From positions 1-64,000 of the forward strand of contig NZ_JJOY01000014.1 of NCBI RefSeq assembly GCF_000979455.1: 64,000 bases of DNA, in the 5' to 3' direction. A program made the position numbers and the translations under genes. The notes beneath the pieces were generated by a model. The model did no database searches. It worked only from the letters and a program-made list of their open reading frames with translations, and had not been told where the DNA came from. Source of the stretch: Methanosarcina sp. 2.H.T.1A.6. Its GTDB lineage: Archaea > Halobacteriota > Methanosarcinia > Methanosarcinales > Methanosarcinaceae. Below, piece after piece: positions 54,277 through 56,419 of the stretch; position 1 is the first letter of the stretch, and every line of letters begins with the position of its first letter.

Positions 54277-54488
54277 AATAGAAGGTTCTTTTTAAAACAT
54301 AAGCTCCTTTAACTTTTTTCACCATTTTTAAAAGAGAGTTTATACATTGAACAGCAGTTTCAGCTTGACCCGAAAATCCATCAGACATCGGCACTTTCTG
54401 CTACATTTATCCCCATTACAAACTTCGTCCCCTGATCCCTTTTAAGTTCGATACAGCCATCTATCTGTTCAACGAGAATATTTACAAG

Positions 54489-55868
54489 CTAGAGCCCAAG
54501 AGAATCGACAGTATTAAAATCAACGGTTTCCGGAATACCCCTGCCGTTATCTGCTACCATTAATGTGTAATCAAAACCCCTTTCACAGCCCATACCCTCG
54601 CCTGAATGTCCTGTTTTTGAAGCAGGTTTTGCTGCCCTGCTGAGACTTATTCGAATTTCCCCTCCCTCCCCTTCAGGGAAAGCATGCTTCAGGGAATTCG
54701 AGACCAGTTCGTTGACAATAATTCCAAGAGGAATTGCAGTGTCCATGCCAAAATTAACCTGTTCAAGGTCAAGTTTGAGGCTTATATTATCGTTGCCCAC
54801 AAGATATGAGTTTAACAGGTCTGCAGTCAGTTTCCGGAGGTAGGCTGCAAAATCCAGAGTATCTATGTCATCACCTTTGTATAACTCTTCATGAATGAGA
54901 GCCATAGAAGCTACACGGTTCTGGCTTTCCCGGAAGGCTTCAAACATTTTTCTGTCGCTGAACCTTTCTGCTTCGAGACTGAGCAGGGAAGAGATTACCT
55001 GCAAATTATTCTTTATCCTGTGATGGATTTCTTTTATGCGGGCTTCCTCAATTTGTCGTAGAGTATCTTCTGCCTTTTTACGTTCGGTAATATCGTGAAC
55101 AAATCCCTGGAATTGCCCGGAAGTTCCGGAATCTTTCGGAAGCTTCTGGAAAACCTCCCTGACCCATCTAACCTCTCCATTTTTTCTCTGTACCCTGTAC
55201 TCGATTTCGGTAGATAGATCCGGATTAGAGACTGATTTTTTAATGTTCTCAAGAAGCATGGGACAGTCTTCAGGCACAACTACTTCTGCCCATTTAACCC
55301 TGTGAGAAAGAAAGTCTTCCTTACTGTAACCTGTAATCTCTTCAACCGCCCCATCCATGAAGGTTGTTTCTGCATTTTCATCAAACCGGAAACCTATAAG
55401 ACCTTCGATATTTTGCACCAGTGAAGAGTAGGCTCTTTCATTTGTTTGAGGAAACACAATTGAAGGTTCACTTTCAGGTTCTTCTATTTGCACACCGAGC
55501 ATCCTGTAAATACGCCCCTGATCATCCTGAAGAAAAAATGTTTTCTGCCTCAAAGCTCCTTCACTCTGTTTAAGCTCCCTGAAAAGAATGCTGTAAGGCT
55601 CACTGAACCCAGTAGACACAATTGCCGTGTAGATCAGGTAGAAAAACAGCAGTTTAAAATAGTGCCCAATAGCAAACGAAAAGTCATCCACCTGTGTAAA
55701 CGTGGTGGCAGTCAGTTCTGAGAGAACTGTCAGGATTATGGAGGCTGCGAGCAGCCTGAAAACATGGTTTTCAAACCGATCTCCCTTTAGATAAAGAAGG
55801 ATCAATGAACAGACAAGCGTTAAAGAGATTACATACTCGCTTATCTGTCTTTCCGCAGATGTCTTCAA
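54489..55868 (-). CDS. sensor histidine kinase, C-terminal fragment ending at UAG
   Basis: A 459-codon frame beginning at a TTG that lies within the inserted element. It encodes the second half of MASE3 (SEYVISLTLV to LFRELKQSEG), a PAS domain with PAC (FDENAETTFMDGAVEEITGYSKEDF), a HisKA_2 dimerisation helix (KEIHHRIKNNLQVISSLLSLEAERF, the histidine near residue 280), and an HATPase domain with NELVSNSLKHAF and VADNGRGIP. It stops at UAG after DSLGL, where homologs continue with QLV. In Methanosarcina UAG can be read as pyrrolysine, so a 495-residue product is conceivable. Confidence 0.7.
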   Translation of the reverse strand: MKTSAERQISEYVISLTLVCSLILLYLKGDRFENHVFRLLAASIILTVLSELTATTFTQVDDFSFAIGHYFKLLFFYLIYTAIVSTGFSEPYSILFRELKQSEGALRQKTFFLQDDQGRIYRMLGVQIEEPESEPSIVFPQTNERAYSSLVQNIEGLIGFRFDENAETTFMDGAVEEITGYSKEDFLSHRVKWAEVVVPEDCPMLLENIKKSVSNPDLSTEIEYRVQRKNGEVRWVREVFQKLPKDSGTSGQFQGFVHDITERKKAEDTLRQIEEARIKEIHHRIKNNLQVISSLLSLEAERFSDRKMFEAFRESQNRVASMALIHEELYKGDDIDTLDFAAYLRKLTADLLNSYLVGNDNISLKLDLEQVNFGMDTAIPLGIIVNELVSNSLKHAFPEGEGGEIRISLSRAAKPASKTGHSGEGMGCERGFDYTLMVADNGRGIPETVDFNTVDSLGL

Positions 55869-56095
55869 AAAAATAACATTTTTCCTGCTATCGTTTTTGG
55901 AGATTTATTTTAAAATTTGCAGTTATAATTTCAACTGAAGCTTAGGAAAATGGATGCTGGAAGTTTTCAATGAAGGCAAAAAGCCACAAATTTTGGAAAA
56001 TATCAAAAACATATGTTTAGTTAAACATGAAGTTTTTCAGAAAAAACGATCGCAGAAAAAATTGTGAAAATTGAAAGGACATCTGCGGAAAGCCG
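55845..56095. mobile_element. MITE-like 251-bp insertion with terminal inverted repeats
   Basis: The ends carry the perfect 15-bp inverted repeat CTTTCCGCAGATGTC (55849-55863 and, inverted, 56078-56092). Similarity continues inward for about 50 bp (ATTTTTCCTGCTATCGTTTTT against ATTTTTTCTGCGATCGTTTTT). The element is bounded by GCTTAT at 55839-55844 and 56096-56101, a 6-bp target duplication; removing it and one copy restores the MASE3 reading frame. It encodes no protein and has an internal palindrome ATGTTTAGTTAAACAT. I do not recognise the parent family. Confidence 0.78.
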
Positions 56096-56419
56096 GCTTA
56101 TGACTTTAAATGCAGTTAACCCTACACCTTCAATATAAGCAACCGGAAAAATCTCCATCCTCTCATATGACAAAGTATGTAAAAGGTCCAGGGTGCCAAA
56201 AAAGAAACAAGAAATTTCTATCAGCAAGAGATACCTGTTTTCCAGAAATGTCTTGGATTCCCATGCAACCAGAAATATTACATACGCAATTATGACACTG
56301 AATAACTCCACAAGAGTGTGGAAAAAAAGGTTGTTACTAAGGTTAATCAGATGGAGCAAACTTATTACGACTGCCCAGAATATTATTTTGTAGATTACGA
56401 TCCGAGAATTCTTATCCAC
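56021..56419 (-). pseudogene. MASE3 sensor N-terminal fragment
   Basis: A 132-codon frame from GTG at 56419 with four hydrophobic segments: IIFWAVVISLLHLI, HTLVELFSVIIAYVIFLVAW, YLLLIEISCFFFGTLDLLHTL and, from the inserted element, a spurious LSIFTIFSAIVF. YIEGVGLTAFKVIS is the MASE3 signature just before the insertion. The last 25 residues are read from the element, so the product is not a functional sensor. Confidence 0.7.

Follow-up and report, generated by a model that had tools for sequence, protein, structure and literature searches.

The window, a 64,000-nt stretch of Methanosarcina sp. 2.H.T.1A.6 DNA, contains on its reverse strand a histidine kinase gene of the MASE3-PAS-HisKA_2-HATPase type, interrupted by a non-coding element of 251 or 252 bp (Table 1). 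The 5' part of the gene lies at 56102-56419 and the 3' part runs from 55844 downwards, with reading homologous to other kinases continuing past a TAG codon to about 54402. The ORF list of the window holds no ORF of at least 50 aa wholly inside the element, in agreement with the first-pass annotation, made from the letters of this DNA, which had described a MITE-like element devoid of coding capacity. The element is thus short and lacks a transposase gene, as MITEs do. At its left end (55849-55868) the element provides a TTG start, from which an open frame continues into the 3' portion of the kinase to give a 459-aa ORF that may appear in automatic annotation as a separate gene.

Table 1. Coordinates of the features of the interrupted kinase locus in the window
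Feature	Coordinates	Strand	Basis or remark
Interrupted MASE3-PAS-HisKA_2-HATPase histidine kinase pseudogene	54402..56419	-	Pfam/NCBIfam matches on both halves; translation of the joined flanks and of the stretch beyond the TAG; intact syntenic orthologue (672 aa)
Junction where about 74 MASE3 codons are lost in frame	~56140-56152	-	Between SYERMEIF and PVAYIEG; gap against homologues, missing profile positions, alignments with the orthologue (protein and DNA)
TAG replacing a conserved Gln codon (SLGLQLV)	54489-54491	-	Gln in 13/13 aligned homologues
MITE	55845..56096	.	252 bp, in the frame of sister copies (genome and genus alignment), most of which extend 4 bases beyond CTTTCC on either side
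MITE, alternative extent	55845-56095		251 bp, with GCTTAT read as the duplication
Left terminal inverted repeat, CTGTCTTTCCGCAGATGTC	55845..55863	+	19 bp, inner 15 perfect; 16-18/19 bases as in the ends of the 1.7-kb autonomous IS
Right terminal inverted repeat	56078..56096	-	Reverse complement, CCGGCTTTCCGCAGATGTC
Left target-site duplication	55839..55844	.	6-bp GCTTAT, or only its final five bases, CTTAT
Right target-site duplication	56096..56101	.	GCTTAT; or CTTAT (56097-56101) if the element ends at 56096

Ends and borders of the element

In the letters of the window, CTTTCCGCAGATGTC occupies positions 55849-55863 and its perfect reverse complement positions 56078-56092. Inward of these repeats the inverted similarity continues imperfectly, at 74% between 55849-55883 and 56058-56092, and a second inner stretch (55878-55898 and 56042-56062) reaches 90%. 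The perfect 15-bp terminal inverted repeats, the inverted similarity beyond them and the GCTTAT on both sides of the element, all reported by the first-pass annotation, were therefore found again.

The same annotation had given the borders as exact to the base. At the right border, however, one base can be assigned either way: the element measures 251 bp if the duplication is GCTTAT (6 bp) and 252 bp if it is CTTAT (5 bp), and the joined sequence after excision is identical for both readings. The 252-bp frame fits the anatomy of the family as well or better, because sister copies extend four bases beyond CTTTCC on both sides. It is also favoured by the end rule of the IS1634 family, C-----YT, which both ends obey only in this frame (left, CTGTCTTT; right, CCGGCTTT) and which the right end of the 251-bp frame breaks. 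The window copy is one base off the canonical 6-bp duplication frame.

Dispersed copies, empty site and fold

Within this genome and across the genus, both the inverted-repeat ends and the element as a whole are found repeatedly, a recurrence that the first-pass annotation had proposed looking for. A search of the own genome (4.07 Mb, 54 contigs) recovered, besides fragments, one further copy that is 99% identical, with 3/252 bases different, two that are 92% identical and some ten others of nearly full length at 73-84%. There were matches in 28 of the 31 genomes of the genus and in 39 of the 112 of the family, so that the element exists as multiple dispersed copies at all three levels, as is typical of MITEs. 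One congener genome, G002, contains some 25-30 near-identical copies, which points to recent spread. Also in G002, one copy is apparently nested in the end of another (L125:1818-2126), with the inverted repeats doubled on both sides.

Among 58 distinct copies, the element extends four bases past CTTTCC at both ends and usually measures 252 bp. An exact 6-bp target duplication occurs in this common frame in 41 of them; when the right flanks were shuffled 2000 times, the number of such copies averaged 0.9 and never exceeded 5. A few others show a 5-bp duplication in that frame. The window copy, with 5 bp in the 252-bp frame or 6 bp in the 251-bp frame, likewise has a duplication of 5-6 bp.

The syntenic orthologue (L186, in genome G009) is an intact 672-aa kinase without insert, which provides the empty site that the first-pass annotation had suggested seeking. 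Its neighbours match those of the window, namely a hydrolase, a cation-efflux protein and, on the far side, a methyltransferase, with functions named by reading the sequences. The empty site reads IISEYVISLILV in the orthologue and VISEYVISLTLV in the joined flanks of the window; the wider surroundings read RGLTDFLIISEYVISLILV and VGLTAFKVISEYVISLTLV, respectively. Other intact homologues of the kinase also lack the insert. We considered that the 251 bp might belong natively to this kinase lineage, for instance as a diverged linker or an insert with a regulatory role, and might never have transposed: here they lie in one gene, and the TTG-started frame inside the left end runs in frame into the kinase. 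However, the presence of the same sequence at many unrelated loci with target duplications, together with the uninterrupted orthologue and homologues, refutes a native insert, to which we give practically no credence.

The whole element folds back on itself very strongly, with z = -6.9 as a DNA single strand and -6.8 as RNA. Considering this fold, the second copy at 99% and the many additional copies, a chance origin of the observed structure is excluded. The foldback, together with a mean column identity of 83% over 30 divergent copies, could also indicate that the element is retained for a hairpin function, as a structured RNA, a terminator or a regulatory cassette, beyond being a mobile passenger. 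Yet when the 30 copies are folded as a consensus, nothing beyond a short stem at the ends and some weak internal pairing persists, real covariation is absent (its term is -0.21 kcal/mol), and a comparison of the element with Rfam returned nothing near the gathering score, leading us to reject a structured-RNA function. The inverted ends and an origin from recent master copies account for both fold and conservation, making a retained hairpin function very unlikely; the inverted ends are the best explanation of the strong fold.

An IS1634-family partner and previously described MITEs

The genome of G002 carries, at four places, a 1,708-bp IS with the same ends as the MITE (CTGACTTTCCGCAGATGTC and CCGACTTTCCGCAGATCTC), the two being identical at 16-18 of 19 terminal bases. 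This IS encodes an intact 540-aa protein that matches the IS1634 transposase model NF033559 with 383.5 bits, as well as Pfam DUF4277 and DDE_Tnp_1. A full IS with matching ends, the last of the searches put forward by the first-pass annotation, thus exists in congeners and encodes an IS1634-family transposase. Relatives of the IS at 88-93% and 75-77% identity in other congeners have the same ends, and several of these same-ended relatives are flanked by 6-bp duplications (CTAAGA, CATTAT, ATATAT, TTACAT). The window's own assembly contains the cognate IS only as a 261-bp remnant (92%), along with a partial, poorly matching relative at the end of a contig, indicating that the transposase of this genome was either lost after the last movement or is concealed in the gaps between the 54 contigs.

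Beyond the ends, eight comparisons between the MITE and the IS yielded no significant similarity (best p = 0.06), which leaves the idea that the MITE arose from this IS by internal deletion unsupported. Another type of IS1634 element, about 1.9 kb long and with a 76% similar transposase, was found at L161, L183 (G008) and L162 (G010). Inside the repeat, its right end, CCGACATTCCGCAAATGTCCACAAAAATAACATT, is somewhat closer to the left end of the MITE than is the 1.7-kb IS (p = 0.06). Recoding of an in-frame TGA common to this second type was discarded, because the TGA precedes the likely start Met.

Members of the IS1634 family are 1500-2000 bp long, with ends C-----YT and direct repeats of 5-6 bp (PMC2266710). 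The window MITE agrees with them in its ends and in duplications of 5-6 bp, and its 1,708-bp partner encodes a DDE transposase (NF033559); unlike these IS, however, it carries no transposase gene. Two MITEs associated with IS1634-family elements have been described in the genus: that of ISMba11 in M. barkeri, with 247 bp, 23 copies, inverted repeats of 20 and direct repeats of 6, and that of ISMac10 in M. acetivorans, with 249 bp, 15 copies, inverted repeats of 18 and direct repeats of 0 (PMC3852290, Table 4). Compared by size, inverted repeats, direct repeats and copy number alone, both resemble the window MITE in genus, size, IS1634 partner and length of the inverted repeats, and the ISMba11 MITE also shares the 6-bp duplication. 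The 2013 report found archaeal MITEs and their IS to be alike only at the ends (PMC3852290), as is the case here. The window copy is a separate insertion from the ISMba11 and ISMac10 MITEs, and represents one more insertion of an already described kind of Methanosarcina MITE.

Decay of the kinase and movement of the MITE

According to the first-pass annotation, removal of the element restores the reading frame exactly. The flanks indeed join in frame (...LTAFKVIS-EYVISLTLV...), but the rejoined kinase is still defective. About 74 MASE3 residues between SYERM and YIEG, present in every intact homologue, are absent from the joined reading, leaving profile positions 69-142 uncovered; this loss, of 222 bp, lies 40-50 bp from the element. 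The window kinase reads IFPVAYIEG where paralogues read GIFP...NFPVAYIEG, and a deletion between short repeats (possibly two TTTCCGG-like stretches) would fit this arrangement. Near the C-terminus, the TAG codon cuts the HATPase domain, and homologous reading persists beyond it; the window kinase consequently does not retain complete MASE3, PAS, HisKA_2 and HATPase domains. The same genome encodes a PylS-type (pyrrolysyl-tRNA) synthetase, and the TAG may be a nonsense mutation or may be partially read through as pyrrolysine. The kinase is thus a decaying pseudogene with three lesions, the MITE, the loss of about 74 codons and the TAG.

We conclude, with a probability of about 0.95, that this is a non-autonomous MITE, that Methanosarcina transposases of the IS1634 family recognise its ends, and that it was inserted by a transposase acting in trans into a kinase gene that is now a decaying pseudogene. 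The element belongs to a multicopy family with shared ends and target duplications, the orthologous site is empty and an autonomous IS with the same ends exists in congeners. An IS1634-family transposase, supplied in trans, would recognise the ends of the MITE and place it in the kinase gene, where 5-6 bp of the target would be duplicated; movement by this particular transposase is a step that we infer. The host gene has in addition lost about 74 codons and acquired the TAG.

These results account for the split kinase gene by ordinary gene decay through a mobile element, and the two kinase ORFs are to be annotated together, as a single pseudogene that carries three lesions. General knowledge of MITEs is unchanged by the finding, and an archaeal MITE family with clean ends, duplications and a matching transposase could become a small genetic tool or a marker of activity. 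Two copies in this genome differ at only 3/252 bases, suggesting recent movement, and both the 1.7-kb and the about 1.9-kb IS1634 subtypes share MITE-type ends within the family. It is conceivable, although we consider it rather unlikely, that the MITE lineage outlives its transposase, with two or more diverged IS1634 subtypes serving its ends across the family. If so, the MITE would persist over long times as a parasite of IS1634 elements that change or arrive from outside, and would not be a by-product of one IS.
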